A stretch of DNA of 31,916 nucleotides, taken from a virus. Shown piece by piece: positions 4,663 to 27,906 of the stretch. Under the pieces are notes generated by a model. The model saw nothing but the letters and a program-made list of their open reading frames with translations. It searched no databases and was not told the origin of the DNA. The position numbers were made by a program, and so were the translations under genes. The stretch lies in IMG/VR virus record IMGVR_UViG_3300013126_002175, positions 1-31,916 of that record. One strand, given 5' to 3'. Numbering within the stretch: the first letter of the stretch is position 1; every line of letters begins with the position of its first letter.

Positions 4663-4798
4663 TACTAGTTGGTATTTTATTGTATACCATATGATATGGT
4701 ATACATTACTTACATTATCGTTAATCTACTTTGGACTAATAAAAACCCTAGGAGTTTTATTCCTAGGGTTAATTTATTTAGCATATACACAAGGTTAG
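4619..4798 (+). CDS. Possible 59-aa two-helix membrane protein, overlapping the thermonuclease end
   Basis: A 59-codon ORF starts at ATG 4619 in another frame inside the thermonuclease gene and ends at TAG 4796-4798. The N-terminus (MLENTTEKLNKAGVDTSW) is polar. The rest is two hydrophobic stretches separated by a short IK turn, ending YLAYTQG. This is the shape of a small inner-membrane or holin-like protein, and it lies beside lysis genes. Against it: no convincing SD precedes the ATG, and the ORF spans a perfect palindrome and the terminator hairpin. The last bases overlap the convergent gene. I consider it plausible, not proven. Confidence 0.45.
   Translation: MLENTTEKLNKAGVDTSWYFIVYHMIWYTLLTLSLIYFGLIKTLGVLFLGLIYLAYTQG
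4682..4704. repeat. Perfect 11-bp inverted repeat (GTATACCATAT-G-ATATGGTATAC)
   Basis: Two perfect 11-base arms surround a single central G, just after the thermonuclease stop. The one-base centre makes it poor as an RNA hairpin loop, although a shorter stem with a larger loop could form. It looks more like a two-fold symmetric protein-binding site, or a second transcript-end structure upstream of the terminator. It also lies inside the candidate small membrane ORF. Confidence 0.7.
4744..4770. terminator. Bidirectional intrinsic terminator between convergent genes
   Basis: A perfect 10-bp stem (AACCCTAGGA with TCCTAGGGTT) encloses a 7-base loop. On the minus strand it is followed by a run of five T, giving a classical terminator for the DUF4337-like gene. 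On the plus strand the following bases are AATTTATTTA, a weaker T-rich tail. It sits between the thermonuclease end and the convergent gene end, where a shared terminator is expected. Confidence 0.8.
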
Positions 4799-5316
4799 AA
4801 TGGTAACCACATCCATATAGCCTGACTAACTATTACTGATCCAACTGCTCCAACAATAGCACTTACCCAAAACATTGGCATACTAACAGCTAATATACTA
4901 GCAGTTAATAATACAATCGCTATTTGTAATATACTACCACCCCAAGTAAACCATGGACTACGCTTTTTAGCATCATCACGCTCTGCTTCCAGCAATTTAG
5001 CTTTTTCCATAATCTCTTTTTTATCATTATCCATACGCTCTTTTTCAGCCATAAACTTTTCTTTATTAGCTGGGATTTGTGTTTCAACCGCGTTAATTTC
5101 ATATAATACGCCACGAACATTTTTAGCTTGATACCAGGCCCACATATTATTTGCTTGAATTGTATTGTTTTGTATTTTACTACTATTACTACCGCCAATC
5201 ATTGTGTTAATAGCTAATAATGCGGCTAAAAATATAATAACGAATCCTGCTTTGTCTTTGATATTTGCCTCTTTTTCACTTCTACTTAGAGGTTTTACTT
5301 CTGGTTTATCAGACAT
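4795..5316 (-). CDS. DUF4337-like membrane protein
   Basis: The first ATG of the frame is at 5331, but an ideal SD (AAGGAG, 5328-5323) lies just downstream of it. That points to the ATG at 5316 as the real start (MSDKPEVK), giving 173 residues. The order is a basic N-terminus, a TM helix (about residues 25-43), a central charged coiled coil beginning with an ANNMWAWYQAKNVRG motif, and two C-terminal TM segments ending in WMWLPF. This matches the DUF4337 family of bacterial membrane proteins of unknown function. It is the only minus-strand gene in this part of the window and has its own late-type promoter and terminator. A role in the envelope or in superinfection is speculative. Confidence 0.85.
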   Translation of the reverse strand: MSDKPEVKPLSRSEKEANIKDKAGFVIIFLAALLAINTMIGGSNSSKIQNNTIQANNMWAWYQAKNVRGVLYEINAVETQIPANKEKFMAEKERMDNDKKEIMEKAKLLEAERDDAKKRSPWFTWGGSILQIAIVLLTASILAVSMPMFWVSAIVGAVGSVIVSQAIWMWLPF

Positions 5317-5416: not shown

Positions 5417-6889
5417 ATGAAGAAAATAGCAATATTGTGGGCATTACTCTTAACTACAAATGTAATTGCCCAAACTGCCACAAGTACACAAAGCACAACA
5501 GGTGGTACCACTACAAGTAATACAAGTATTATTAATAATGGCACATATGATGGTGGAAGAAGTTTGGTTGATACAAACTCAACTAGTAACAGTACCAGTT
5601 CAGTAACTACTAACAACAATAGTATTAGCACAAGCACAGCTACAAGCACAAGTACGGTAAATAGCACTAATACTAATAATAACAATAGTAGTAGCATAAG
5701 TACTAATATTAATACTAATAACAATGTACAAAGTGGCACAGCTACTAATATAAACAACAACAACTTATCAGGAAGTGTTACCTATACCAATAATAACAAC
5801 AATGTAAATAGTGGGACGATGACATATAACAATAATAATGTCAATACTGGGACACTGAATTATAACAACAATAATACTTCAACCAGTACCAGCACTGTCA
5901 ATAATGTTAATTCAGGAACACAAACATTTAATAATGTTAATACAGGTGATATGACTAATCGTAATATATCCAATGTAACATCAACAAACACAAATAATAA
6001 TATTAATTCAGGAACACAGACATTTATTAATCAAAGCACAATAGGATCAACAAGTAAAAACGAGAATATCAACACTGGAACAATGACATATAATAACAAC
6101 AATGTTAGTACAAGTAATAATATTAATAGTGGAACAATGACATATAATAACAACAATGTAAGCACTAGTACAAATAATGTTAATCAAACAGGTGACATGA
6201 CCAACCGTAACATTAACACGGTAACTAGTACAAATAACAATATTCAAACTGGAGATATGACTAATCGCAATATTAATACGCTAACAAGTACAAACAATAA
6301 TATACAAACTGGAGACATGACCAATCGTAATATAAGTAATACCACAGCAACATCCACAAACACAAATAATAATATACAAACTGGAGACATGACCAATCGC
6401 AATATCAATACCAGTGTAAGTAGTAGTTCAGCGACTAATATTAACAATAATAATAGTCAAAGTGATAATCGTAATGTTAATATTCAAACTGGTGATATGA
6501 CTAATCGCAATATCAATGATACAACGATTACACAGAAAGTAATACAACCTCCTCCAACAGCGATTGCTCCAAGCATGATGAGCGGTGGTAGTCCTGACTT
6601 ATGTACAACAGGAGCTAGTGGTGCTGTACAAACACAGTTGTTTGGTATGAGCATGGGTGGCACACAGCGTGATATGAATTGTGAAAGATTAAAACTTAGT
6701 AAGACATTATTTGACATGGGCATGAAAGTAGCAGCAGTTGCTACTATGTGTCAGGATCGCAGAGTATTTGATGCTATGATGATGGCAGGCACACCATGTC
6801 CATATGAGGGTATGATTGGTGAACAAGCTAAAGAGGGTTGGTTTAAGAACCCAGAGAAAATGCCTAAACCAGTAAAAGACAATGGATAA
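5417..6889 (+). CDS. Exported Asn/Thr/Ser-rich repeat protein, amyloid- or fibre-like
   Basis: This 490-residue protein has a signal peptide (residues 1-18, cleavage after VIA). Residues from about 20 to 370 are very low complexity, dominated by Asn, Thr and Ser. They contain degenerate repeats of two kinds, SGTMTYNNNNV and TGDMTNRNI, the latter partly at an exact 20-residue period. Such repeats suggest a beta-solenoid or curli-like fibre; related phages are known to carry curli-assembly genes, but no curlin consensus is proven here. The last about 105 residues form a different, Met- and Cys-rich domain with four cysteines (in DLC, MNC, TMC and TPC). The gene overlaps the next by 8 bases. It probably acts outside the cytoplasm; function is unknown. 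Confidence 0.85.
   Translation: MKKIAILWALLLTTNVIAQTATSTQSTTGGTTTSNTSIINNGTYDGGRSLVDTNSTSNSTSSVTTNNNSISTSTATSTSTVNSTNTNNNNSSSISTNINTNNNVQSGTATNINNNNLSGSVTYTNNNNNVNSGTMTYNNNNVNTGTLNYNNNNTSTSTSTVNNVNSGTQTFNNVNTGDMTNRNISNVTSTNTNNNINSGTQTFINQSTIGSTSKNENINTGTMTYNNNNVSTSNNINSGTMTYNNNNVSTSTNNVNQTGDMTNRNINTVTSTNNNIQTGDMTNRNINTLTSTNNNIQTGDMTNRNISNTTATSTNTNNNIQTGDMTNRNINTSVSSSSATNINNNNSQSDNRNVNIQTGDMTNRNINDTTITQKVIQPPPTAIAPSMMSGGSPDLCTTGASGAVQTQLFGMSMGGTQRDMNCERLKLSKTLFDMGMKVAAVATMCQDRRVFDAMMMAGTPCPYEGMIGEQAKEGWFKNPEKMPKPVKDNG
5942..6514 (+). repeat. Coding repeats encoding TGDMTNRNI (six copies)
   Basis: Copies begin at 5942, 6188, 6248, 6308, 6380 and 6488. Copies 2, 3 and 4 are spaced exactly 60 bases apart (20 codons). 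The codons vary (GGT/GGA, GAT/GAC, AAT/AAC, CGT/CGC), so the protein repeat is conserved beyond the DNA. Asn-rich SGTMTY units occur before and between them. Confidence 0.85.
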
Positions 6890-8873
6890 GAACTATAATT
6901 ATAAACATACCAAAGGCTTTATAGTCTTTATTTTTGTTACTATACTAATGGCGTTAGTAGCTGTATACGCACAGGTTCCAAATAGCTATACTACCAATTT
7001 AATTAACAATACAACAACAGCAAATAATGTAAGCTCAACATGGCAAAACGCAGGTACAATTAATCAGCCAATTACATGTTGGGCACCTGGTGATCCTGGT
7101 TATTGTGGACCCAAACCATATGTGAATGCTTGGGAAGGCCCAAACACAATTAATTTTAGTTATGGTATGACTGAAATTTATCAAATGGTCAACATAGGTA
7201 AAGCACTTCCCAATAACGGAACAGGATTAGTTAATACAGGATATATTTTTAGTTTTTTAGCAAAAAATGGTAATGGTTGGGATGATGGCAGACAAGATAT
7301 CTTAAAAGCACAAGTTACATTATATGGTCCAAATAATGTAAAAGTTTTAGAACAACATAGTTATGATTTAAACAGTGTTTTTAATTGGACTAATTTTTCA
7401 TATAATGTCAATTGGAGCACCACAAAAGTTGGATATCGTGAAAATCAAGTTGGTAATGTAAAATTTGGGTTTTATGGTATGGATAATAATTATTGGGCAG
7501 GTCCATATGGACCAGAAGTAACCAATATATCTTTTCAACTAAAGTATAAACCTGATCCTTGTGTTAAAAACCCACTCTTTAGTCCAGAATGTCCTAAATT
7601 TCAAGAGGAATTAAATAAAAATTTATCATCCAATTATAATACTGAACCTACATATACAAAAACAGAATTCGAACCTAGCAAATTAGATGACAATCATGAT
7701 CCAAAAAAAGAATCAAATTTTGCTATGGGCGAAAAAGAAGAGGGTGTATTTGTACATGAAGATGAAAGATTCACTGAACCAACACACAATAGACTAGATA
7801 ATTTAGAATTCGCATTGACAAAGATATTTGACGCACAAGCCAGACAAGAAGAACAATCATTAGATATAGCTAATACTGCTGTATCAAAAACAGAACAACA
7901 AACAAAAGAAGTTGTACGCAATGCTGAACAACGAGTTCGTGAAGTAGTAAATCAACAATTTAGAGATATTGAAAATATAAAACCACAACTATTGACAGAA
8001 CAAACAAAACAAAATAATACAAGTCTAGAAAGTATTTTTAAAGGACCTGAAAATTCAAGTAGTGTGACACAATTTCAGTTGCAGGGAAATCAAAACACTA
8101 GTGTCGTTACAATTTTACAGGACAATAAAATACAGAATAACCAACAAAGAGAACAAACTCAAGTAAGTGTAGTAAGACAAGGGCAACAAATTCAACAGCA
8201 AAATAACAATAATAAACAAGATACTGAATTTAAATTTGAACTTAAGAATGAACAATCAAAACAATATGAAACTGTGTTTGGCACAGTTAATAACAATCAA
8301 ATACTTCCTAGTGTGGCAATATATGCCCCATTACAAAACACTATTGTAAGTCCTCCGAACATACAACAAATTATTACACCAAATATTGAGGTTACTGTTC
8401 AACCTGTTATATTGGCACCAAGACCAGAATCTCAAATAAATTTACAATCTACTGTGCCTATTATAGATATTGTTAAACCAAACATAGAACAATTTCAACC
8501 AAGTAAGCCCATACAAAATGTTGATATTCCAATAATAGCATCAAACTTTTTAACAAATAAGGCTGATCCACTTAACGAAATCTTAGAACCAAAAACTTTT
8601 ATTAAAACAGAAAACAAGAATGAAGAAAAAACTCAAACAGTAAAAACTAATGTAGTTGATAATGATGTAGCAGGGAATGTTAGCATACAAACTATTGCTG
8701 TATCACCAGTTGGATTTAATCAATACACAAACTTTATATTGCGTGATGTGGCTTTTTACGCACCAAAAGAAATATATCGTGGTCAAAGAACAGTTGATAA
8801 CAACAGAGCACTTAGAAACTTAGCAAGTGATAGACTTCACCAGGACATGGTGAACCAACAATATAGGAGGTAA
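6882..8873 (+). CDS. Large membrane-anchored or exported protein with central coiled coil
   Basis: This 663-residue protein has an N-terminal hydrophobic segment (about residues 13-31) after a basic KNYNYKHTKG stretch, so it is either a signal peptide or an anchor. Residues about 60-225 form a Gly/Asn/aromatic-rich domain with a WAPGDPGYCGP motif and an INFSYGMTEIYQMV block, probably a beta-sandwich. A DPCVKNPLFSPECP cysteine motif follows. Residues about 300-380 are a charged coiled coil, then long Gln/Asn-rich and hydrophobic stretches. The gene overlaps the Asn-rich protein by 8 bases, suggesting a joint role at the cell surface. Its last codons (QQYRR-stop) double as the AGGAGG ribosome site of the next gene, and this end is repeated near 9436. 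Confidence 0.82.
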   Translation: MDKNYNYKHTKGFIVFIFVTILMALVAVYAQVPNSYTTNLINNTTTANNVSSTWQNAGTINQPITCWAPGDPGYCGPKPYVNAWEGPNTINFSYGMTEIYQMVNIGKALPNNGTGLVNTGYIFSFLAKNGNGWDDGRQDILKAQVTLYGPNNVKVLEQHSYDLNSVFNWTNFSYNVNWSTTKVGYRENQVGNVKFGFYGMDNNYWAGPYGPEVTNISFQLKYKPDPCVKNPLFSPECPKFQEELNKNLSSNYNTEPTYTKTEFEPSKLDDNHDPKKESNFAMGEKEEGVFVHEDERFTEPTHNRLDNLEFALTKIFDAQARQEEQSLDIANTAVSKTEQQTKEVVRNAEQRVREVVNQQFRDIENIKPQLLTEQTKQNNTSLESIFKGPENSSSVTQFQLQGNQNTSVVTILQDNKIQNNQQREQTQVSVVRQGQQIQQQNNNNKQDTEFKFELKNEQSKQYETVFGTVNNNQILPSVAIYAPLQNTIVSPPNIQQIITPNIEVTVQPVILAPRPESQINLQSTVPIIDIVKPNIEQFQPSKPIQNVDIPIIASNFLTNKADPLNEILEPKTFIKTENKNEEKTQTVKTNVVDNDVAGNVSIQTIAVSPVGFNQYTNFILRDVAFYAPKEIYRGQRTVDNNRALRNLASDRLHQDMVNQQYRR

Positions 8874-8876
8874 TAT
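8839..8876 (+). repeat. Left copy of 38-base repeat flanking the Tim44-like insert
   Basis: This segment encodes HQDMVNQQYRR-stop and contains the AGGAGG ribosome site for the gene at 8875. A diverged copy lies at 9399-9436 (HQEMVDQQYRR-stop) before the next gene; 31 of 38 bases agree by my alignment. The two copies bracket the GC-rich insert. Confidence 0.8.
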
Positions 8877-9321
8877 GGAAATAGTCAATACAAATTTTAA
8901 ATCGTTCACACAGCATTTAAAGCATGTTGCTTTGAGTTTTGCTATGGTTTTTGCGCTTGCGACAGCAGGTCTTTTCAGTGCCGACGCCGAAGCGAGCAAA
9001 CGTCTAGGGTCAGGTGGCTCCTTGGGGAAGCAATCCTCGATTGCCACTCAAAAGCAGGCTACGCCGCCTCAAGCTGCACCCTCTCAGGCTCCTGCCCCTG
9101 TAGCCGCCGGCTCCCAAGCAGCAGCCCAGTCGCAACGTAGCCAATGGCTTGGCCCGATCGCCGGTCTGGCAGCGGGCTTGGGGCTTGCTGCCCTTGCATC
9201 GCATTTTGGCTTTGGTGAAGAGCTTGCAAACTTCATGATGATTGCGCTCTTGGTGATGGCAGTTTTATTCATTATTCGCATGGTGATGGCAAGACAACAG
9301 GCGGCTAACCAAGGCGGCTAA
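8875..9321 (+). CDS. Truncated Tim44-like membrane protein of bacterial host origin
   Basis: This 148-residue protein has a signal peptide or anchor (about residues 18-40), then KRLGSGGSLGKQ, a Pro/Ala/Gln linker and a QWLGPIAGLAAGLGLAALASHFGFGEELANFMM block. It ends with a TM segment (LLVMAVLFIIRMVMARQQ). This is the N-terminal layout of Tim44/TimA-like proteins of Betaproteobacteria; the C-terminal Tim44 lipid-binding domain is absent. From about base 8990 the DNA is strikingly GC-rich, unlike all neighbours, while the first 100 bases are phage-like, so a host fragment seems fused behind a phage-like start. A 13-bp tandem duplication brings in the stop at 9319. Whether the short product works is unknown. 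Confidence 0.82.
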   Translation: MEIVNTNFKSFTQHLKHVALSFAMVFALATAGLFSADAEASKRLGSGGSLGKQSSIATQKQATPPQAAPSQAPAPVAAGSQAAAQSQRSQWLGPIAGLAAGLGLAALASHFGFGEELANFMMIALLVMAVLFIIRMVMARQQAANQGG

Positions 9322-9325
9322 CCAA
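9300..9325 (+). repeat. Exact 13-bp tandem duplication causing a frameshift
   Basis: The unit GGCGGCTAACCAA occurs twice in a row (9300-9312 and 9313-9325). Thirteen is not a multiple of three, and the second copy brings TAA into frame. With one copy only, the reading frame continues through 35 more codons to the TAA at 9431. Confidence 0.9.
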
Positions 9326-9433
9326 GCTTCATCAGCCTCAGCACAACCTGATTGGGCGGTCGCGGGCTCGCAGCAGGGCTATGGTCAGGACGCAAGACAT
9401 CAAGAAATGGTAGACCAACAATATAGGAGATAA
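9322..9433 (+). other. Disconnected 3' coding part of the Tim44-like gene
   Basis: With one copy of the 13-bp repeat removed, the Tim44-like frame reads on as QAANQASSASAQPDW, then a Gly/Gln-rich tail, and ends HQEMVDQQYRR-stop. The base composition stays GC-rich until about 9392 and then returns to phage-like. This tail repeats the C-terminus of the gene ending at 8873. It is probably untranslated in the present frame unless ribosomes or slippage restore it. Confidence 0.7.
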
Positions 9434-9436
9434 GAT
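9399..9436 (+). repeat. Right copy of 38-base repeat flanking the Tim44-like insert
   Basis: This diverged copy of 8839-8876 encodes HQEMVDQQYRR-stop in the repaired Tim44-like frame and carries the TAGGAGA ribosome site for the gene at 9435. Confidence 0.8.
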
Positions 9437-10088
9437 GGGCGAGGAAATTAAAAATGTCAATGCAAAAATTGACGAAGCTGAAGCAGCAGTTAAAAAATAT
9501 GCCAGCAAAGATACTGTAATTAGTATTGGTGGTTATGAATTTACACCAGCCAAACTTATGGTTGCTGCTACATTATTATCAAGCGCATTAGGTGGTTTAT
9601 ATGGTGTGTTTGAGGTATATAAAGATTATATGGGTATGAAGAAAAAGATTGCTGAATATGTTAGCCCAGACTTTACTGAGTTTGATAAACGATTAGCAGT
9701 GATTGAAGAAAACATTGCTAAAACAAGTAAAGCTGTACAAGAGGGTAGTGATAAAACAGCAGAATACACACGAGATATTAAGAATGACTTAAAGAGTGAT
9801 ATCCGTCGATTAGAAAAGGTTGTTGAGAATGTAGAAAGTTATAACAAACAACAACAAAGAGAAATTGATAAAACTGTTACTGAAGTAAGAACAGAGGTTC
9901 GTGCTATTCAAAAATCTGCTGATGCTAGTATGAATAGTGCTACAAAAGAAATGAACCGTATGGCTGCTGAAAATACCAAAGCAATTGCTACTAATAATAA
10001 GGAAATTGATAGTAGAATGAAAGCATTAGATAGAAAGATTAATGAGGATTTGAAAAAAGCATTGGATAATCCATTAGCCAACAAATAA
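9435..10088 (+). CDS. Membrane-anchored coiled-coil protein
   Basis: This 217-residue protein has a short polar N-terminus and a hydrophobic segment at about residues 37-58 (AKLMVAATLLSSALGGLYGVF). A long charged helix follows, from about residue 66 to the end, with strong coiled-coil character (DLKSDIRRLEKVVENVE, EVRTEVRAIQ). It would sit in the inner membrane with a long cytoplasmic or periplasmic rod, or be a virion protein. The ribosome site TAGGAGA lies in the repeat just upstream. I recognise no family. Confidence 0.8.
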   Translation: MGEEIKNVNAKIDEAEAAVKKYASKDTVISIGGYEFTPAKLMVAATLLSSALGGLYGVFEVYKDYMGMKKKIAEYVSPDFTEFDKRLAVIEENIAKTSKAVQEGSDKTAEYTRDIKNDLKSDIRRLEKVVENVESYNKQQQREIDKTVTEVRTEVRAIQKSADASMNSATKEMNRMAAENTKAIATNNKEIDSRMKALDRKINEDLKKALDNPLANK

Positions 10089-12311: not shown

Positions 12312-13979
12312 TTATAATAGTTCTTTCAATTTAAATTTCTTGTGTTTTTTCACTGTAACATATTCAGCATTGTTTTTGTAGCCTAGTTTACCCACACCCC
12401 AAATAATTGGTTGGTCGTGAAAACTTATCGCTTTGTCTAATATCACATCCAAATATCTATTATTACCTGTTCCAATCGTTACAAATGTTATATATTCTTT
12501 TGGTTTACTTTTGAATACACGATAGTTAGCAACTAATCCACAAAACTCAACCTCTCCTGGTTTACGGATTTCTGTACAAACTGGAATAAAGTTCTTACTG
12601 TGCCAATGCCCATGAGTTAGTAATTCATCAATCTCATTACCCTCATATATACTATTTACCGCACCTGCTAATTTTGCCTCATGATGATATACCCAACGAC
12701 TATAACTACCTTGACAATGTTTTAATGTTGCTTCCCAAAATTTTGTAGGATTATGTGCTTTCTGATAAGCAATAGCCCATATCAATCTTCCTAAGTTAAT
12801 AGCGTGGGCACGACACAATCCAAAATTACTGAGTTCAGTTAATGCGTAAAAGATTTCTTCCTTGTTCTCATGGTTGCCAATCAAGTCCATAAACTCAAAG
12901 ATTTTTTCTTCATTACGTTTGGCAAAGGCACGACGCCACATGTCAGCTTCATAATGATTACAATCTAATAACTTACTAATCAACATAATAGCATCATCTT
13001 CAAATACAATGGTATTGTCAAACGTGTCTTTGCTCCAATCACGGAAAAAACTTGCTTTGCGACGACCTTGTGTAGCGACTGGTCTAATCAATGCTGTGGC
13101 TAATACACAATCTTCACGCTTGGTTGGTTTGATTGCTTTGAATAACCTACGCATTGCTGGACTCTCGGCTTGTGTCACGCCCAATACATTTCCTGTACGC
13201 AATAACTCTATTGTCTTTGCGTCATATTCGGGATAGTCTAATAAGTTCATATTGGGTTCAATTTCGTAAAGTTGGCTTAATCCACGATTAGCGAGAATAT
13301 CAATTTTAAAATGTTCTAAATCTTCAATTTCATATTTGTCCAGTAATATTTGATTTTCATTATTGATTAAGCTTTTGGGCACACTTCTATCAAAGATAAG
13401 AATACCACCGCAATGTTTACTGATACAACGTTTTTTACCTAATAATTTTTTGACCAATCGTTTTGCTTCATCGGCAAATTGTGGGACAACTTTATCTAAG
13501 TCAATGTTTCTTGGAAGTTTGCCTGTTGCTCCATATCGTTTTGCTGCCTCACGAATAGCAGATTTTTCCTTATAGGTTACATAGTTACTCACACGTGCTG
13601 ATTGATTGGGCCAGTGTTTGTAGATGCGATTCATTACAGTTTCTTGTTGATAGTGCGGAAAATCCAAATCAATATCAGGTAAGTCATCACGTTTTGGGTT
13701 CATAAATCGTGCTAATGGGATATTTTCTTTGATTGGGTCAACATCACTAATGCCCAATAACCAACATAATAAACTACTACCTGCGCTACCACGAGTCATA
13801 TGTGGTATATCTTTGGTCAAATTAAGTATTTCAACTACCCGTAAAAAGTGTTTTGCGAATCCTAATTTTGCTATAATCTCAAGTTCTTCTTCTAAACGTT
13901 TTTCGTATTCAGTATTGTCTGGTAATTTTCTAATAAATTTACTAATTAAAATTTCTAATTCTTTATATCTACTTTCCAT
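12312..13979 (-). CDS. Family C DNA polymerase core (DnaE-like) without PHP domain
   Basis: This 555-residue protein corresponds to the catalytic core of bacterial Pol III alpha. A TRGSAGSSLLCWLLGISDVDP block (about 62-82) matches the alpha GRGSGAGSL motif. PDIDLDF holds Asp102 and Asp104, and FKIDIL holds Asp227, so the three catalytic aspartates appear intact. Finger-type segments follow: GVTQAESPAMRRL, LIRP, and a CRAHAINLGRLIWAIAYQKAHNP stretch like the alpha [21 protein letters not shown] region. The N-terminal PHP exonuclease domain is missing, and the C-terminal part is short (intact alpha is about 1,100 residues). It leads an operon with the amidotransferase-like gene and is divergent from the T4-like PolB. 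It may be a repair or specialised polymerase, or bind primers; this is inference. Confidence 0.85.
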   Translation of the reverse strand: MESRYKELEILISKFIRKLPDNTEYEKRLEEELEIIAKLGFAKHFLRVVEILNLTKDIPHMTRGSAGSSLLCWLLGISDVDPIKENIPLARFMNPKRDDLPDIDLDFPHYQQETVMNRIYKHWPNQSARVSNYVTYKEKSAIREAAKRYGATGKLPRNIDLDKVVPQFADEAKRLVKKLLGKKRCISKHCGGILIFDRSVPKSLINNENQILLDKYEIEDLEHFKIDILANRGLSQLYEIEPNMNLLDYPEYDAKTIELLRTGNVLGVTQAESPAMRRLFKAIKPTKREDCVLATALIRPVATQGRRKASFFRDWSKDTFDNTIVFEDDAIMLISKLLDCNHYEADMWRRAFAKRNEEKIFEFMDLIGNHENKEEIFYALTELSNFGLCRAHAINLGRLIWAIAYQKAHNPTKFWEATLKHCQGSYSRWVYHHEAKLAGAVNSIYEGNEIDELLTHGHWHSKNFIPVCTEIRKPGEVEFCGLVANYRVFKSKPKEYITFVTIGTGNNRYLDVILDKAISFHDQPIIWGVGKLGYKNNAEYVTVKKHKKFKLKELL

Positions 13980-17877: not shown

Positions 17878-18236
17878 TAAAGTATATCGCAGGCGGACAA
17901 TATATCAATGTCATGGGCGGTAGCACTAGTTACCCTTACATCAACATGAGTAATCCTAGCACAGGTATGCTTCGTTATAATGGAAACAATCAGAACTTTG
18001 AAGTATATGATGGTAATAGTTGGATGATTCTACCTGGTAATTCAAGCAGTGTTGATTTGAATAATGATGCTAAAGAATTACTTGAATGGACTAGGGCAAA
18101 ACGAGCAGAAGAAAATTATTACAAACAAAAATACAAAGACAATCCTGCTATACAAGACTTGGTTAAACAACGTGAAGATATTGATAGCAAGATTAGTATG
18201 ATAACAACTATACTACGTGAAGAAGTAAAAGTCTAA
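17874..18236 (+). CDS. Uncharacterised phage protein with C-terminal helix
   Basis: This 120-residue protein overlaps the clamp by 4 bases. The N-terminal half is Gly/Tyr/Asn-rich and beta-like (GGQYINVMGG, GMLRYNGNNQNFEVYDG), resembling repeats seen in tail or neck proteins. The C-terminal half is helical and charged (ELLEWTRAKRAEENYYKQKY). I recognise no named family. Its location between clamp and DpdA-type gene gives no clear role. Confidence 0.72.
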   Translation: MIKYIAGGQYINVMGGSTSYPYINMSNPSTGMLRYNGNNQNFEVYDGNSWMILPGNSSSVDLNNDAKELLEWTRAKRAEENYYKQKYKDNPAIQDLVKQREDIDSKISMITTILREEVKV

Positions 18237-19774
18237 TGGAACAAATTGATTTAAGTAGTCAACAAAATCCTGATTGGGCATTGTTCTTACCTGCTATTAG
18301 TAGTTTTTATATTAGTGGATTGGGCAAGCAGCGTGAAGGTGAGCAATACTTTGATACTAACAGAATACCGGCAGGATTTAATAATGATGTTGAATGTCTT
18401 AATTTCTTAAACAGTAAACAAGGATTGTTTACATACAAATGGGGACTATATAGTGCTGGTCATGCCAATCTTGATACTAGTGTTATTGATAACGCTGAGA
18501 GTATTGTAAGAAAACGTGAGAAAGGTACTTTCTTATTAGGTGATAGTGGTGGTTTTCAAATTATGAAAGGTCAATGGCCTGCTGATTGGAAAGACCCCAA
18601 CTGTCCTAAAGCAATGAAACAACGACAAAAGGTATTAAAATGGATGGATACATACATGGATTATGGTATGTGTTTAGATGTTCCTAGTCAAACATTACGT
18701 AATAAACATTTGTTGGATAAGCATGGTATATCAACTATTGAAGAAGCTGTACGGGCTACACATATCAATAATGAATATTTCATAAACAATCGTAGTGGAG
18801 ATTGTAAATTTCTCAACGTACTACAAGGGTTGACACATAAACAATCCGATGATTGGTATGATGAAATGAAGGTGTATTGTGACCCAAAAGTCTATCCTGA
18901 AAATCATTTCAATGGATGGGCATTCGGGGGACAGACGAAAATAGATATACATCTTACATTAAAGCGTATGGTAAATATTATTCACGATGGTCTGCTGGTA
19001 GAAGGTAAACACGATCTTATACATTGTTTGGGTACTAGTATATTAGAATATGCGGTATTGTTTAGTGATATTCAACGAGCCATTCGTAAATATCATAACC
19101 CAAAATTAGTCATTACATTTGATTGTGCTAGCCCGTTCTTTAGTGCTGCTAAAGGCCTTGCTTATTTCAATACAAATATTGAACATAATAAAAAATGGTC
19201 ATATAGTATGGAAAAAACTGCTGAAAAGAAAAGCTATGCTAATGATAGTCGTAAATTTCGGAATGCTGTAATACAAGATGGTATCCATAAATTATTTACA
19301 GACAGTCCTGTTACTGATAGAATGCTAGTTCGTGATTTGTGTTACAGAGGTGTAGGATTCATAGGACAACATGGTAAAGAAACAAAAACAAGTTGGGATA
19401 CATTAAGCTATACACTCTTACAAGCACATAATGTATACCAACACATTGTAGCAGTACAAGAAGCAAATCGTAGATATGAAAAAGGTGTTGTTCCTGCTAT
19501 GATTATGAATGATACTTTTGAACGTGTTGTTTTTAGTGAAGTTGTTGATGAAATTTTTAGTTTAAAAGACAGACAGAAAAGTTTAGCATTGATTGATAAG
19601 TATGATAGATTTTGGATGCAAATGAAATCAGGTAGTCAAGGATTTAGTGGTAAAAAAACTGTAAATGCTATGACTATGTTTGATGAATTATTTGAATTAC
19701 AAGAATCTTTACCTGAAGCAAATGATGAAATTTTAGATAGTGATGAGGAAATGTCAATAGTTCTAGGAGAATAA
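18236..19774 (+). CDS. dpdA: DpdA-type DNA 7-deazaguanine transglycosylase (TGT family)
   Basis: This 512-residue protein is a tRNA-guanine transglycosylase relative. LGDSGGFQIM places the general-base Asp at 103, NVLQGLT (about 194-200) matches the TGT VQGG strand, and VITFDCASP places the probable nucleophile Asp at 296. A late AHNVYQHIVAVQEANRR helix resembles the TGT HN...R helix. It is longer than tRNA TGTs and fits phage DpdA, which swaps guanine in DNA for a preQ0-type base and so protects phage DNA from restriction. The presence of FolE, QueD and QueE in the window supports this. The start shares one base with the preceding stop. Confidence 0.87.
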   Translation: MEQIDLSSQQNPDWALFLPAISSFYISGLGKQREGEQYFDTNRIPAGFNNDVECLNFLNSKQGLFTYKWGLYSAGHANLDTSVIDNAESIVRKREKGTFLLGDSGGFQIMKGQWPADWKDPNCPKAMKQRQKVLKWMDTYMDYGMCLDVPSQTLRNKHLLDKHGISTIEEAVRATHINNEYFINNRSGDCKFLNVLQGLTHKQSDDWYDEMKVYCDPKVYPENHFNGWAFGGQTKIDIHLTLKRMVNIIHDGLLVEGKHDLIHCLGTSILEYAVLFSDIQRAIRKYHNPKLVITFDCASPFFSAAKGLAYFNTNIEHNKKWSYSMEKTAEKKSYANDSRKFRNAVIQDGIHKLFTDSPVTDRMLVRDLCYRGVGFIGQHGKETKTSWDTLSYTLLQAHNVYQHIVAVQEANRRYEKGVVPAMIMNDTFERVVFSEVVDEIFSLKDRQKSLALIDKYDRFWMQMKSGSQGFSGKKTVNAMTMFDELFELQESLPEANDEILDSDEEMSIVLGE

Positions 19775-21014: not shown

Positions 21015-22182
21015 ACTTTATTATATGGGGCTAGAGCCCTACAAAGCACGTTATACTCTACAGTTACAAGAGTGGAATCGTAGAGTATTTGAACAACGTA
21101 GCATTGATTATTTTATTGTTCCAGGTGATACACTTAGTAATGATAAAGCTATTGTAACTGGGCAAGTATTAGATGCTCATGGAAGAACATATTTTGGTAT
21201 GAGTCAATTAATGAACCTAATTCGTTATATGAAATTAGGTGAGTTGAATAGTGAGGACATTATCTATTTTGAAGATATGTTTCAACCTGGTATCGAAAGT
21301 CTTCCATACATACTAAATCAAATTGATGAACAACATCGTCCCAAAATCTTTGTACGTTGTTTAGCACAAAGTATTGACCCAGATGACTTTGTACACGTAT
21401 GGGGTATGGGAAAATGGATGGGTCATTATGAAAAAATGGTTGATAGTTTTGTAGATGGTGTATTGGCTAGCAATGAAGAAATGGTAGCACATATGCGTAT
21501 TGCTGGTTGGACTAGCAAAATCTATAATATAAGCGGACTAGCTTATGGAAAGAAAGAAGTTCTAAGTAGAGTAAATAGTATTACGCCTTTTGACAAAAGG
21601 AGTATGCGTGTAGTTTTCTCAGCGAGATGGGATCAGGAAAAACAACCTGACTTTTACATGGACCTGATTGAAGCTTGGCAAAACAACGAAGGACTTCCAA
21701 AAGTAGAATTCGCAGTATGTAGTGGGAGTAAGCTAAGATCAAACAATCAAAGTTATATGGAGCGCACATACAAGTTAGTAAATGAAGGTAAGTTAAAGTT
21801 ATACGAAGATTTAGAAAAGAATGACTATTATAACATTGTTAACGATAGTCGGGTAGTGTTTAATTGTGCGTTACAAGATTGGGTTAGTAATACAGTCAGT
21901 GAAGCGGATACACTAGGGTGTAATGTTTTGTACCCTGCTTATCGTAGTTTTCCTGAAACCTTCGCAAATGACCATGAACGTATGTATGTTCCATGGTCGC
22001 TAGATGATGTTATGTCAAAATTATTGCCTTTGCTAAGAATGGCACATAAAAACATTGGTAAAATCAGCGATTATACAGATAAAACTATTGATAGAATATG
22101 TGATATATTAGAAGGTAATGGTGAGCATATGCTACGAAATACTGTTGATTACAGAAAATATAATAGAGAGGCAAAGTACTAA
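21007..22182 (+). CDS. Glycosyltransferase (GT4-like)
   Basis: The frame can be opened at a TTG (20995), but ATG 21007 gives the natural N-terminus MRKLYYMGLEPYKARYTLQL and 391 residues. The C-terminal half has the GT-B pattern: RVVFSARWDQEKQPDFYMDL (about residues 199-218, donor-binding start), a KLYEDLEKNDYYNIV stretch, and a VFNCALQDWVSNTVSEADTLGC motif where GT4 enzymes bind the sugar nucleotide. Its partner at 29891-31222 has a related RWEEGKNPELFIDL motif. Substrate unknown; it may modify DNA, a virion protein or the host surface. It overlaps the cupin upstream by 8 bases and guaC by one base downstream. Confidence 0.82.
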   Translation: MRKLYYMGLEPYKARYTLQLQEWNRRVFEQRSIDYFIVPGDTLSNDKAIVTGQVLDAHGRTYFGMSQLMNLIRYMKLGELNSEDIIYFEDMFQPGIESLPYILNQIDEQHRPKIFVRCLAQSIDPDDFVHVWGMGKWMGHYEKMVDSFVDGVLASNEEMVAHMRIAGWTSKIYNISGLAYGKKEVLSRVNSITPFDKRSMRVVFSARWDQEKQPDFYMDLIEAWQNNEGLPKVEFAVCSGSKLRSNNQSYMERTYKLVNEGKLKLYEDLEKNDYYNIVNDSRVVFNCALQDWVSNTVSEADTLGCNVLYPAYRSFPETFANDHERMYVPWSLDDVMSKLLPLLRMAHKNIGKISDYTDKTIDRICDILEGNGEHMLRNTVDYRKYNREAKY

Positions 22183-23021
22183 TGAGAGTAGAGGATGAAA
22201 TTAAACTTGACTTTCGTGACGTACTAATCCGTCCAAAACGTAGCACATTAAGCAGTCGTAAAGAAGTTGATTTAGTTAAGTTTTACAAGTTTAAACATAG
22301 TCGTTATGAATACGAAGGTGTTCCTATTATGGCTGCTAACATGGATGGTGTTGGCACTATTAATATGACATTAGCATTAGCTCAACATAGGTTATTCACT
22401 TGTTTAGTTAAATCATACAACAACAATATTGATAATTTTAATAATTTTAAAATAGCTAAAAATAACTATGCGGTAAGTACAGGTACAAGTGATACTGATT
22501 TTCGTAACTTGAATACCATTATTACAGGCATAGGAGCACAATTTATATGTATTGACGTTGCCAATGGGTATAGTGAGCAATTTGGTGACTTTGTTGAAAG
22601 TGTAAGAGCACGTTGGCCAGATAAAACTATCATAGCAGGGAATGTTGTTACAGCAGACATGACACAGGAGTTAATTTTACGTGGAGCCGATATTGTTAAA
22701 GTTGGCATTGGTCCTGGCTGTTTTGCTTCGGGCCAAAAAGTTAAAACCGATAAAGGCTATAAAAATATCGAAGATATTAAACAAGGTGAAAAAGTTTTAA
22801 CACATACTGGTTCTTACAAAACTGTGACAAACACATTTAAATTTGATGATAAAAAATCGATAGTAGATGTAAATGGAATCAAAGCAACTCCCAATCACAA
22901 GTTTTATGTTTTACATAAAAAATATCGAGACATTGTAACAGATGATAATATTAATAAGTATGCAGAATGGGTTGAAGCAAAAGACTTAACAAAGGATTAT
23001 TTACTTTTAAAGCATAAATAA
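22182..23021 (+). CDS. guaC: GMP reductase N-terminal half fused to N-intein (split intein)
   Basis: Residues 1-179 (to base 22718) match E. coli GuaC from the start (DFRDVLIRPKRSTL, AANMDGVGT, CIDVANGYSEQF, GNVVTADM, VKVGIGPG). At 22719 the sequence changes to a 100-residue N-intein: Cys1 in CFASGQKVKTDKGY, a GEKVLTHTGSYKTV block and the block B motif TPNHKFYV, ending in a stop. It closely resembles the IMPDH-1 split intein from marine metagenomes and sits at the same GIGPG site. GMP reductase makes IMP from GMP with NADPH. This half alone lacks the catalytic Cys, so activity requires trans-splicing with the product of 23868-24470. Confidence 0.93.
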   Translation: MRVEDEIKLDFRDVLIRPKRSTLSSRKEVDLVKFYKFKHSRYEYEGVPIMAANMDGVGTINMTLALAQHRLFTCLVKSYNNNIDNFNNFKIAKNNYAVSTGTSDTDFRNLNTIITGIGAQFICIDVANGYSEQFGDFVESVRARWPDKTIIAGNVVTADMTQELILRGADIVKVGIGPGCFASGQKVKTDKGYKNIEDIKQGEKVLTHTGSYKTVTNTFKFDDKKSIVDVNGIKATPNHKFYVLHKKYRDIVTDDNINKYAEWVEAKDLTKDYLLLKHK

Positions 23022-23062
23022 CATTATAAAAGTTGCTATAGGAGTAGGATATAAAATCTAAA

Positions 23063-23887
23063 ATGTTTAAAAATTCTGTGGAAATTGTAAGATATGAAAA
23101 AGTAGGCAGAAATAACTTTGCTTACTTTAAAAATGGGGGAAAAATTTCTTCAGGTGATTTAGGCAGAATTGAAATCGAATGTGATAAATGCAAGTCGTTA
23201 AAACAGGTTGGTTTTAGATCAGCGTTATTAAAAAAGAAACATGTGTGCCAAAGTTGCAACAAAATAGGCAAAAGTAATCCCTTTTATGGAAAAACTCATA
23301 CACAAGAAACTATAAAGCGTCATTCTAAATATATGAAGGGTCGATTTGTTGGCGACTGTAATCCATTTTACAGTAAGTCTCATACAGAAGAAACTAAAGA
23401 AATACTTCGTCAAAAATGCGCTCATTATGGTGAGGATAACGGATTTTATGGAAAAACTCATACTGATGAGTTTAAAAAGAAACATTCCGAATTTATGAAA
23501 ACTATAGGAAAACGTCCTATAGAATATTACTCATTGATGGGCATAAAATCTGTTAATAGCAAGCCCAAAAAAACTAAAATAGAAAAAGCAACGGAACAAA
23601 AGTTACAAGAATCGGGTGTTAATTTTAAGTACAACTTCATTTTACAAAATAAAGCACAGTATGATTTTTTAATAAACGACAACATTGTATTAGAAGTTCA
23701 TGGAGACTTTTGGCACGGAAATCCCGAAGTGTATAGCACATTAACAGAACGACAAGAATATAAAAAGCAACGAGATTTTGAAAAACAAAAATTAGCAGAA
23801 GATAACGGATACAAATATCTCGTTATATGGGAATCACAAATTAAAAAAAATGACTGGAGTATTTTAGATGAAATTCGAATTAGTTGA
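23063..23887 (+). CDS. Vsr-like homing endonuclease inside the split guaC locus
   Basis: This 274-residue protein has an N-terminal zinc-finger-like CDKC...CQSC (about 38-71) and three NUMOD3-like repeats ([36 protein letters not shown]). The C-terminal nuclease domain has a [22 protein letters not shown] core, the pattern of Vsr-like (EDxHD) endonucleases. This family was described together with split-intein 'fractured' genes. The ribosome site is AGGAG (23041-23045). It would cut intein-free guaC alleles and drive spread of the whole insert. Its last 20 bases overlap the start of the C-intein cistron. Confidence 0.88.
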
Positions 23888-24470
23888 AATAGATACACTT
23901 GAAATTGAATCATATGACGGATACACATACGATCTTGAAGTAGAAGAAGATCATTCATATAACATAGATGGTGTGGTTGTTCATAACAGCGTGTGTACCA
24001 CAAGACTCGTCACAGGCGTTGGTTACCCGCAACTTTCTGCCATCATTGAATGTGCTGATGCTGCTCATGGTTTGGGTGGACATATTATTGCTGATGGTGG
24101 TTGTACCTGTCCTGGTGATGTTGCTAAAGCATTCGGAGCTGGCGCAGATTTTGTAATGTTAGGTGGTATGTTTGCTGGACATGACGAAGGTGGTGGTACA
24201 GTAGAAAATGGACGAGTTACTTTTTATGGTATGAGTAGTGAAACTGCTATGAATAAAAACCATGGTGGTGTTGCCGAGTATCGCAGTAGTGAAGGACGTA
24301 CAGTAGATATACCATATCGTGGTCCTGTTAAAAATACTGTGTTAGATATATTAGGTGGATTACGTAGCACTTGTACATATGTTGGAGCAAGTAACTTAAA
24401 ACAGTTGCCCAAATGTACAACATTTATAAGAGTAAATAGACAAGTAAATGATATTTTCTTAAGGAGCTAA
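23868..24470 (+). CDS. guaC: C-intein fused to GMP reductase C-terminal half (split intein)
   Basis: Residues 1-40 are the C-intein ([15 protein letters not shown], then [19 protein letters not shown]), with the penultimate His and terminal Asn needed for splicing. From 23988 the GuaC sequence resumes with the +1 Ser: [53 protein letters not shown] and a normal C-terminus. Joined to the first half this gives 339 residues (E. coli GuaC 347) with the catalytic Cys at about 182, three residues after the splice junction. A good SD (GGAG, 23856-23859) precedes the ATG, so it is translated independently of the endonuclease whose end it overlaps. Confidence 0.93.
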
Positions 24471-24928: not shown

Positions 24929-25615
24929 TTGAGCTTTGATAAAACTAAAGTAGATCCTATATTAGGAAAAAAAGTAAGAGAATATTTAATTAAAATGGGA
25001 GTTGAAACTCCTATTAATAATGAAGCACTTGCTGTAGAAAATAAGAAAAAAATTGATATTCTTGAAGATGCTTTTACAACTATATGGAAAACAGTAGGTA
25101 TGGATTTAAATGATGATAGCCTACAAGAAACACCAAATAGAATGGCCAAAATGTATATAAATGAGATATATTTTGGTCTTAAAGAAGAAAACTTTCCAAA
25201 GTGTACAACTGTAAATAATAAAATGAAGTACAACGAAATGGTGGTGGAAAGAAATGTCTCAGTTCAAAGCAATTGTGAACATCATGGTGTTATTATTGAC
25301 GGTCTTGCTACTGTTGCATATGTACCTAAGGATAGAGTTTTGGGTCTTAGCAAAATCAATAGAATTGTGGAATATTTTAGTAAGCGTCCTCAAATTCAAG
25401 AACGGTTGACTGAACAAATCTTTCACACACTACAATATATTTTAGATACTGAAGATGTTGCTGTTATGATTGATGCTCAACACTATTGCGTAAAAAGTCG
25501 TGGTGTAGAAGATACAGGTAGTTCAACTGTAACAAGTCGTTTGGGTGGCGGTTTCAAATCTGATATAGCAGTACGTAATGAGTTTTATAGTATTGCTAGA
25601 TCAGGATGTAAATAA
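24929..25615 (+). CDS. folE: GTP cyclohydrolase I
   Basis: This 228-residue protein is close to E. coli FolE (222). Diagnostic blocks are TPNRMAKMYI, the Zn site NCEHHGV with Cys and His-His, GLSKINRIVEYFSKRPQIQERLT, and HYCVKSRGVEDTGSSTVTS with the second Zn cysteine. It converts GTP to dihydroneopterin triphosphate, the first step to 7-deazaguanines (and folate). The start is a TTG with an ideal AAGGAG ribosome site 7 bases before. Given QueD and QueE downstream and DpdA nearby, its role here is most likely 7-deazaguanine synthesis. Confidence 0.96.
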   Translation: MSFDKTKVDPILGKKVREYLIKMGVETPINNEALAVENKKKIDILEDAFTTIWKTVGMDLNDDSLQETPNRMAKMYINEIYFGLKEENFPKCTTVNNKMKYNEMVVERNVSVQSNCEHHGVIIDGLATVAYVPKDRVLGLSKINRIVEYFSKRPQIQERLTEQIFHTLQYILDTEDVAVMIDAQHYCVKSRGVEDTGSSTVTSRLGGGFKSDIAVRNEFYSIARSGCK

Positions 25616-25875
25616 TGGACTATGGGAAAACTCCTGATACAATGGGCTATAGAAAACCTGATTTAGTTACTGCTGAAGTAAATATCTATTCAGCAATTAT
25701 AGAAGCAAATAGTCGTTTCAACGATGGATTCACACAGTTTGAAATTAAAAAAGACTTATACAGACTAAAGTGGATAATGGACGACTATTTTGCTAAAGCT
25801 CCTAAATTTACTGGCGAAGATGAATGGGTAGATAAAATGATGCAGAAACGTGTTATTGAGATACTAAAACGATGA
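25615..25875 (+). CDS. Uncharacterised 86-aa phage protein
   Basis: This protein starts at the last base of the folE stop. It is helical and acidic/aromatic: EVNIYSAIIEANSRFNDGF, then KKDLYRLKWIMDDYFAKAP and a C-terminal QKRVIEILKR helix. Similar small proteins sit next to folE and queD genes in T4-like marine phages as far as I recall, without known function. It overlaps the next gene by 4 bases. Confidence 0.75.
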   Translation: MDYGKTPDTMGYRKPDLVTAEVNIYSAIIEANSRFNDGFTQFEIKKDLYRLKWIMDDYFAKAPKFTGEDEWVDKMMQKRVIEILKR

Positions 25876-26063
25876 ATAGTGACGAAATCCTAAAAAGGAT
25901 GACCGAGTTAATGGGGCCTATTGACAAACAAATCATGATGTGCGATGATAACAAAGAATTACTCATGTTTGCTTGTGCTATGTTACAGCGTGTTACTGAA
26001 ATCTTTGACCAAGAACTCGGTGTAGATGGTCGCAAAAGAATGCTTGGGGATTTAATTAAATAA
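25872..26063 (+). CDS. Uncharacterised 63-aa phage protein
   Basis: This short helical protein (DEILKRMTELMGPIDKQIMM, MFACAMLQRVTEIFDQELG) overlaps the preceding gene by 4 bases (ATGA). About 80 bases of non-coding sequence follow before queD; they hold a weak TTAGAC-17-TATTCT promoter-like pair (26074-26102) and little else. Function unknown. Confidence 0.72.
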   Translation: MNSDEILKRMTELMGPIDKQIMMCDDNKELLMFACAMLQRVTEIFDQELGVDGRKRMLGDLIK

Positions 26064-26141
26064 GTATAGTGGTCTTAGACATTCATCCCACTTTAAATAT
26101 TCTGCATGTCATCAAACTTACTCAGCTTAAGGAGGCAAGAG

Positions 26142-26618
26142 GTGGCAAAATATATTAGTACAAAAACATATAGACAAATTGGTCCAGTAGCATACCGTCA
26201 ATGGCGTGCTGACAGTCATTGCAATCTTATACATGGTTACGCATTGAGTTTTCACTTTGAATTTGAATGTGATACACTTGATGCCCGTAATTGGTGTATG
26301 GATTTCGGTGGACTTAAAGACTTAAAATACAAACTAGAAGAATGGTTCGATCATACACTACTAGTAGCAACTGATGATCCACAACGTGAAGAATTATTGC
26401 GTTTAGGAAAGATTGGACTAGCAAAAATCACAGAAGTAGAAAAAACAGGGTGCGAAGGTATTGCTGATTTTCTCTACGAATATGTGAACACGATTTACTT
26501 ACCAGCTTTTGGCAGTGGTGAAGCAGAGCGTATATGGTGTAGTAAAGTAGAAGTCCGTGAAACAGATAGTAACATGGCAATGCGTGTTGGTCATCGTACA
26601 GATTATGAATATAATTAA
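26142..26618 (+). CDS. queD: 6-carboxytetrahydropterin synthase-like protein (QueD-like)
   Basis: The frame opens at ATG 26106, but a perfect SD (AAGGAGG, 26129-26135) is 6 bases before GTG 26142, which I choose as the start (158 residues, MAKYISTKTY). The QueD pattern is recognisable: catalytic Cys27 in SHCNLIHGY, DARNWCMDFGGLKDLK, the FDHTLLV Asp-His pair (70-71) and a C-terminal KVEVRET. QueD makes 6-carboxytetrahydropterin from dihydroneopterin triphosphate. The usual zinc set (an upstream His plus HGH) is altered: HGY replaces HGH and the only nearby extra His is His26. This phage-type variant should still be tested for metal binding. Confidence 0.87.
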   Translation: MAKYISTKTYRQIGPVAYRQWRADSHCNLIHGYALSFHFEFECDTLDARNWCMDFGGLKDLKYKLEEWFDHTLLVATDDPQREELLRLGKIGLAKITEVEKTGCEGIADFLYEYVNTIYLPAFGSGEAERIWCSKVEVRETDSNMAMRVGHRTDYEYN

Positions 26619-26626
26619 GGATACAA

Positions 26627-27814
26627 ATGAAAGTTGGAGTTATTGGGGCGGGTATTGCTGGTCTAACAGCAGCATACTATAGTGCCAAAGTTGGTCATGA
26701 AGTTTCAGTATACGAATATGAACCACACCCAGCAATGCGTTGTAGCTATGCTAATGGTGGACAAATTAGTGTAAGTAATAGCGAAGTATGGAACACTTGG
26801 AATAATATCGTAAAGGGTATTAAATGGATGTTCAAGAAAGATGCCCCTTTACTTATTCGTCCAAGCTTAGATTTTGATAAAGCATTGTGGTTAGCTAAAT
26901 TTATCTATCATACAGCAGTAAATGATCATGCTAGAAATACAGCATCAACAATTATAATGGGTATTGAAGCACGAAAGTTATATGATGAAATTTGTACTGA
27001 AGAAGGTATAGAGTTTTTTAGAAGTAATTGTGGGATACTACACATTTACAAAAATTACGATTATTTTAGTCAAGCACAAGACATTAAACCATTATACCAA
27101 GCAAATGGTTGTGAATGGGATATTATTGAAGATATTGACAAGTTACATGAGATTGAACCAACATTAAAAAATATGAGAGGTTTGATTGGTGGTATTTTCA
27201 CTAGTAGTGACTTTGTTGGTGATATACATATTTTTTGTACTGAGTTAGCTAATGTATTAAAAACAAAATATAATGTTCAGTTTCACTACAATAGCAAAAC
27301 ACTTAACTATCTGACTAATCCAAATATGTTAGATTACAAATTTGATAGAGTTATTATTAGCGCAGGTGTCAATAGTGTACAATTAGCTAAGAAAATCGGT
27401 GATAGACTTCCAATTTATCCAGTAAAAGGATATAGTGTTACTATTAATAGTAATGACTTAAATGGGTACAAAAAATTACCTGAAGTAAGCATATTAGATG
27501 ATGAGGCAAAAATTGTATGTAGTAATTTAGGTGGACGATTTAGAATAGCTGGCACAGCAGAGTTTGCTGGTGAAAATTATGATATTAGACATGATAGAAT
27601 ACAACCATTATTAAATTGGGCAAGAACAAACTTTCCTGATATTGATACGAGTAATTATAGTAGTTGGGCATGTTTGCGACCAATGACACCAAACATGATG
27701 CCCATATACACTAGAAGTAAACATAATAATAAAGTATACTATCATACAGGACATGGGCATTTGGGTTGGACATTGAGTCCTTATACAGCAAAATTATTAG
27801 TGAATCAATTATGA
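26627..27814 (+). CDS. dadA: DadA-like FAD-dependent D-amino acid dehydrogenase
   Basis: This 395-residue protein is an FAD oxidoreductase of the DAO family. The dinucleotide motif GAGIAG (7-12) opens a Rossmann fold ending in VYEYEPHP. The YANGGQISVSNSEVW segment and the IKWMFKKDAPLLIRPSLDF block match DadA closely. The C-terminal HTGHGHLGWTLSPYTAKLL is the FAD-binding end. DadA deaminates D-amino acids to keto acids and feeds electrons to the quinone pool. It lies between queD and the HNH/queE genes with an AAGGATA ribosome site. Its use to a phage is unclear: D-Ala from peptidoglycan is a possible substrate, a base-modification role is speculation. Confidence 0.85.
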   Translation: MKVGVIGAGIAGLTAAYYSAKVGHEVSVYEYEPHPAMRCSYANGGQISVSNSEVWNTWNNIVKGIKWMFKKDAPLLIRPSLDFDKALWLAKFIYHTAVNDHARNTASTIIMGIEARKLYDEICTEEGIEFFRSNCGILHIYKNYDYFSQAQDIKPLYQANGCEWDIIEDIDKLHEIEPTLKNMRGLIGGIFTSSDFVGDIHIFCTELANVLKTKYNVQFHYNSKTLNYLTNPNMLDYKFDRVIISAGVNSVQLAKKIGDRLPIYPVKGYSVTINSNDLNGYKKLPEVSILDDEAKIVCSNLGGRFRIAGTAEFAGENYDIRHDRIQPLLNWARTNFPDIDTSNYSSWACLRPMTPNMMPIYTRSKHNNKVYYHTGHGHLGWTLSPYTAKLLVNQL

Positions 27815-27823
27815 ATTTACTTT

Positions 27824-27831
27824 GATAAATA
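27824..27831 (+). promoter_or_regulatory. T4-type late promoter octamer GATAAATA
   Basis: The octamer lies about 10 bases after the dadA stop. A transcript starting about 6 bases downstream would begin at the GGGC arm of the structured segment at 27837-27901, then run into the HNH gene and queE. Confidence 0.6.
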
Positions 27832-27836
27832 TATTA

Positions 27837-27901
27837 GGGCGAACAGGAGTAGCTACCTTTCTGTGCCAATACACAGATAGCCCACCATTTACTTATTGGG
27901 G
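27837..27901 (+). promoter_or_regulatory. Structured 5' leader of the HNH gene; candidate RNA switch
   Basis: A perfect hairpin TCTGTG/CACAGA (27860-27865 with 27872-27877) is enclosed by GGGC/GCCC (27837-27840 with 27880-27883). The same CCCA bases (27881-27884) can pair instead with TGGG (27897-27900), next to the ATG at 27907 where GGGG is the only SD-like sequence. GCTA (27852-27855) and TAGC (27878-27881) could form a pseudoknot. The exclusive pairings look like a translational switch. It matches no riboswitch consensus that I can verify. Confidence 0.45.
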
Positions 27902-27906
27902 TATCA

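Follow-up and report, generated by a model that had tools for sequence, protein, structure and literature searches.

How did a stretch of GC-rich DNA that reads like part of a bacterial gene come to lie between two AT-rich phage genes? The question is raised by IMGVR_UViG_3300013126_002175, a virus record assigned to a T4-like freshwater phage, all 31,916 nt (31.9 kb) of which make up the window analyzed here. GC content is 55.7% across positions 8896 to 9387, compared with 33.6% in the remainder of the window, and reaches at most 44.7% in any other sampled stretch of 492 nt. The initial annotation had recognized this abrupt change and had placed the segment at 8990 to 9392, reading it as recently captured host DNA encoding the N-terminal part of a betaproteobacterial Tim44-like protein. 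The segment is real, but its limits required revision: host sequence starts at 8896, about 95 bases earlier, and ends within 9383 to 9389. The captured DNA (8896 to 9389, plus strand) is about 494 bp long and corresponds to the 5' half of a tim44-like gene, with its right edge inside the overlap at 9383 to 9389. The two diverged repeats said to bracket the segment are also present, at 8838 to 8878 and 9398 to 9438, and are 83% identical over 41 nt.

A DNA polymerase of family B (PF00136) is encoded in the window; its top GenBank hits come from large phages, among them Sinorhizobium phage Phosso (49%) and Agrobacterium phage Atu_ph07. Homologs of the genes neighboring the insert are found on numerous IMG/VR contigs, with lengths of 330 to 356 kb in some cases. 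The family B polymerase coexists in the same phage with a minus-strand open reading frame (ORF; 12312 to 13979) encoding a 555-aa relative of the bacterial DNA polymerase III alpha/DnaE core (E = 1.4e-49, far under the curated cut-off). An IMP dehydrogenase/GMP reductase gene (22182 to 24470) is carried in two ORFs and is interrupted by intein-like halves, Hint_2 ending the first ORF and Intein_splicing starting the second (neither reaches the cut-off); a free-standing NUMOD3 ORF (23063 to 23887) lies between them. We take this arrangement to resemble a "fractured gene" split intein. Genes for GTP cyclohydrolase I and for QueD-like and QueE-like proteins (24929 to 29525) suggest 7-deazaguanine synthesis. 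The ORF at 18236 to 19774 contains a TGT-like motif (DSGGFQ) recognized by eye; family and PDB searches returned no match for it.

The insert is bordered upstream by a gene for a 663-aa protein to which no function was assigned (6882 to 8873, plus strand) and downstream by a gene for a 217-aa protein with a coiled coil and an N-terminal hydrophobic segment (9435 to 10088, plus strand), which shares 48 to 87% identity with IMG/VR relatives among the matches listed. Relatives conserve the C-terminal module of the upstream gene, which typically reads SDRLHQEMVDQQY(R or LP)R-stop and is normally located just before the homolog of the 9435 gene. In a hand count of 65 distinct relative loci, the module directly preceded this homolog in 42 (an empty site), was separated from it by extra sequence (a slot) in 21, and was not recognized in 2; the comparison with insert-free relatives proposed in the initial annotation thus found the flanking genes adjacent in most loci. 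None of the 65 carried two copies of the module. The slots are mostly occupied by small ORFs that have a single transmembrane-like stretch (as judged by hydropathy, about 16 of the 21, 1 of these by eye). In one relative (L105, from about 4670 to 5001 onward), a slot ORF with TEEEQ repeats is seemingly in frame with the 9435 homolog, as a slot gene fused to its neighbor.

The source of the GC-rich DNA was sought in bacterial genomes, one per species. The nearest relatives of the ORF were found in the metagenome bins "Betaproteobacteria bacterium K_Offshore_40m_m2_080" (genome G001, contigs L002 and L008) and "Burkholderiaceae bacterium AM_0233" (G002, contig L005), with nucleotide identities to the insert of 96% over 170 nt (L008), 93% over 184 nt (L005), and, counting gaps, 89% (L002). 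Across ungapped codons 8 to 141, the insert matches the freshwater genome G001 at 381 of 402 nt (94.8%; dS 0.125, dN 0.032), whereas the phage flanks share only about 69 to 79% identity with their own best-scoring relatives. The donor gene lies between ubiE (PF01209) upstream and an SCP2-domain gene downstream, and its L002 copy ends in a Tim44 domain (PF04280, E = 1.8e-19) that lies outside the captured half; homology to genes with this C-terminal domain bears out the earlier identification of the fragment as Tim44-like and betaproteobacterial. Among 74 searched genomes of the donor family, the whole stretch was matched by G001 and, as far as the end of its contig, by G002; a third genome (G043) matched at 75% over about 60% of the stretch, and the others matched short parts or nothing. 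With L005 and G043 as outgroups, the codon differences between the window and G001 were assigned to the window branch in 10 cases and to the G001 branch in 8, with 2 ambiguous (codon 141, with one window base and one ambiguous base, was scored as a window-branch difference). Since the differences are split over both branches, the fragment falls inside the range of variation seen in the donor group, and its capture is recent. Sequence comparison demonstrates a host origin for the fragment, which also supports its proposed use as a clue to the host, a small betaproteobacterial family, provided that the donor is the host of the phage. The donor contigs themselves break within the captured gene: L002 (1 to 127) and L008 (3056 to 3182) overlap exactly by 127 nt at their ends, and the L005 contig also terminates in this gene. 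Such a branching assembly graph could reflect strain variants or additional phage-borne copies.

At the left seam, the window (AGGAGGTAATATGGAAATAGTCAATACAAATTTTAAATCG) was compared with the relative L100 (AAGAGGTAATATGGAAATAGTTAATACAAACTATACAGC, which opens the small ORF MEIVNTNYTALLHVILFIFGLW) and with the host (TCGCGATTTAAATCG). The window is identical to L100 up to about 8894, save one silent base, and identical to the host from 8896 on, a pattern that places a phage ribosome binding site (RBS), start codon, and seven codons ahead of host codon 9, in frame. The seven phage codons stand in place of the first eight of the host. This phage-derived start (8875 to 8895, plus strand), ATG plus codons 2 to 7, encodes MEIVNTN and matches the slot gene of L100, which codes for a small membrane protein. 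The Shine-Dalgarno sequence AGGAGG (8865 to 8870) lies inside the first copy of the module.

The right seam joins host sequence to a second copy of the module. Copy 1 (ASDRLHQDMVNQQYRR-stop; 8823 to 8873, plus strand) is the upstream gene's own C-terminus, of the ASDRLHQ type, and matches L083 (ASDRLHQQMVDQQYRR) at 43 of 51 nt. Copy 2 (GQDARHQEMVDQQYRR-stop; 9383 to 9433, plus strand) is of the GQDAKHQ/AQDARHQ type and matches both L095 (GQDAKHQEMIDQQYRR) and L105 (AQDARHQEMIEQQYRR) at 43 of 51 nt. The two 51-nt copies agree at only 4 of their first 15 nt, and this mismatch, together with their separate nearest relatives, assigns them to two different allele types of the C-terminus encoded by the upstream gene. 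Comparison of host (GGCTATGGTCAGGCGCAGCAAAAT), window (GGCTATGGTCAGGACGCAAGACATCAAGAAATGGTAGAC), and phage L095 (AGCCTAGGCCAAGACGCAAAACACCAAGAAATGATAGAT) locates the seam at the overlap GGTCAGG (9383 to 9389), which is exact in the host and matches GGCCAAG of L095 at 5 of 7 positions; the host frame crosses it in phase with copy 2. The parental phage alleles were not recovered, and the nearest sequences, L100 and L095, are relatives rather than parents.

The resulting chimeric ORF (8875 to 9321, plus strand) encodes 148 aa in one reading frame, with a phage N-terminus followed by the host-derived part: the phage codons lead into a hydrophobic, signal-like segment, an Ala/Pro/Gln-rich linker, and two hydrophobic helices. 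It is 92% identical to L002, and the helix region WLGPIAGLAAGLGLAALASHFGFGEE is common to both. Pfam gave no match above cut-off, PF04280 included, since the capture did not extend to the Tim44 domain, which the ORF lacks; NCBIfam and PHROGs gave nothing convincing. A 13-bp tandem duplication (AGGCGGCTAACCA twice; 9299 to 9324, plus strand, with units at 9299 to 9311 and 9312 to 9324), missing from the host gene and missed in the initial annotation, shifts the frame and creates the stop at 9321; minus the duplication, the frame would continue into copy 2. The linker also differs from that of the metagenome bin by 12 nt, which leaves the frame unaffected. The product should be translated, and its location may be the inner membrane, as judged from hydropathy and an AlphaFold model of low confidence (mean pLDDT, 59.9) that was used for helix positions only.

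These features are very probably explained by a recent, possibly transient capture of betaproteobacterial host DNA through illegitimate recombination during a mixed infection. The high identity to bacterial genomes, the absence of any relative of the fragment among GenBank phages, and the retention of both AT-rich neighbor genes in relatives without the insert all agree with the recent capture first proposed, and a search for the same gene at phage-like divergence in many phages found no such conservation. A T4-like freshwater phage would have taken up about 494 bp of the chromosome of its betaproteobacterial host. On the left, this piece continues in frame from the RBS, initiation codon, and seven codons of a phage slot gene; on the right, it is joined across GGTCAGG to a module of a different allele type from that of the intact upstream gene. 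The seams may have formed by microhomology or blunt-end joining, with host DNA serving as a link between two phage genomes. T4-type phage replication is rich in recombination, which makes such a joining of host and two phages plausible. The original ORF would have run in frame into copy 2 and would later have been shortened by the 13-bp duplication. Its product, probably translated from the strong Shine-Dalgarno sequence and placed in the inner membrane by the host hydrophobic helices, would do the job of the slot gene or, more likely, be transient under weak or no selection.

Other origins of the bracketed insert fit less well. Two copies of a 41-nt repeat with 83% identity could have arisen if the end of the upstream gene was duplicated in one phage and host DNA later replaced the material between the copies, as the initial annotation had suggested as one route. 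We consider this improbable because the copies belong to two allele types, agreeing poorly at the module starts and having their nearest matches in different relatives, and because no relative has the two-copy arrangement; the joining of two phage alleles is the likelier course. Insertion of a mobile element with target-site duplication was rejected, as the repeats are only 83% identical and are of two allele types; the insert encodes neither a transposase nor an endonuclease, and inspection of its ends revealed no terminal inverted repeats. The insert structure, with both seams and the 13-bp duplication, is known from a single contig, and the donor contigs also break in this gene with an exact end overlap, which indicates a region that is hard to assemble, so that a chimera of phage and bacterial DNA made during assembly or library preparation must be considered. 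It is very improbable: exact matches between the host gene and the window sequence on either side reach at most 9 nt, too short for the usual k-mer join; the fragment has its own substitutions, the duplication, and the linker difference; and both seams are in phase and coincide with a slot already known at this gene boundary. An old Tim44-like gene common to phages has next to no likelihood. A full-length gene of this kind is present on a T4-like contig with a gp23 capsid gene (L199), but its identity to the window ORF is only 39%, compared with about 95% between the window fragment and a bacterium, and Tim44 matches were found in 0 of the other 31 related phage records.

Within the preferred reading, recent capture from a bacterium, the host helices could have replaced the usual inner-membrane protein of the slot under selection. 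The transmembrane-like ORFs in about 16 of the 21 slot-bearing relatives are consistent with such recruitment, as are a left seam that preserves the RBS, start, and frame of the phage, a right seam that was in phase before the duplication (a 1/9 chance for both), and a helix core free of replacement changes on both the window and G001 branches. Set against these are the truncating duplication, a slot that is empty in 42 of 65 relatives, and a short window branch with about 6 replacement and 4 silent changes, a near-neutral ratio compatible with weak selection and neutrality alike. Recruitment is possible but doubtful, and a neutral or transient insert is more likely. Slightly more tentative is the view that the slot is a site of interchangeable small membrane proteins, at which a host anchor welded between two phage gene ends represents a phage gene at birth.

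The insert can be compared with other bacterial genes in phages. Like the "morons" or auxiliary genes of tailed phages, it is host DNA of odd base composition at a phage gene boundary and is absent in relatives; unlike them, it is very recent, consists of only part of a gene, joined in frame on the left and, before the duplication, on the right, and is flanked by two phage allele types. With betaproteobacterial PF04280 proteins, encoded between ubiE and an SCP2-domain gene, the ORF shares a signal-like N-terminus, the linker, and the conserved WLGPIAGLAAGLGLAALASHFGFGEELA helix region, but it lacks the Tim44 domain and has phage N-terminal codons. IMG/VR scans with the ORF, the host alignment, and the L199 Tim44 sequence recovered no copy of the window gene and only one distant relative, L199 (IMGVR_UViG_3300010885_037991). 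Its Tim44-like gene (1570 to 2409; PF04280, E = 9e-16) is likewise in a T4-like phage but is complete and near gp23 (PF07068), lying 1.1 kb past it and next after a GIY-YIG/NUMOD3 endonuclease gene. This gene apparently represents a separate acquisition; it has only 39% identity to the window ORF and no close IMG/VR relative by pattern scan. Complete or partial Tim44-like genes have therefore probably been acquired by T4-like phages on two or more occasions. GenBank Tim44 matches in records named Acinetobacter phage MD-2021a were rejected as phage examples, as they sit among lysA, dapF, radA, and other chromosomal genes and look like bacterial contigs submitted under a phage name; one such record (CAKLQF020000019.1), which also carries pdxB and fdhD, looks like a mislabeled chromosome contig. 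Among the papers listed in a literature search, judged by titles and abstracts, none dealt with phage-encoded Tim44.

The capture of host DNA by phages is a known process. In the present example of host DNA uptake, the two junctions are resolved nearly to single nucleotides, and the donor gene, the unoccupied site, the slot gene, and the allele types on either side can all be seen. The insert links an uncultured group of T4-like phages to a small betaproteobacterial family as its probable host and indicates a slot at a gene boundary where small membrane proteins come and go.
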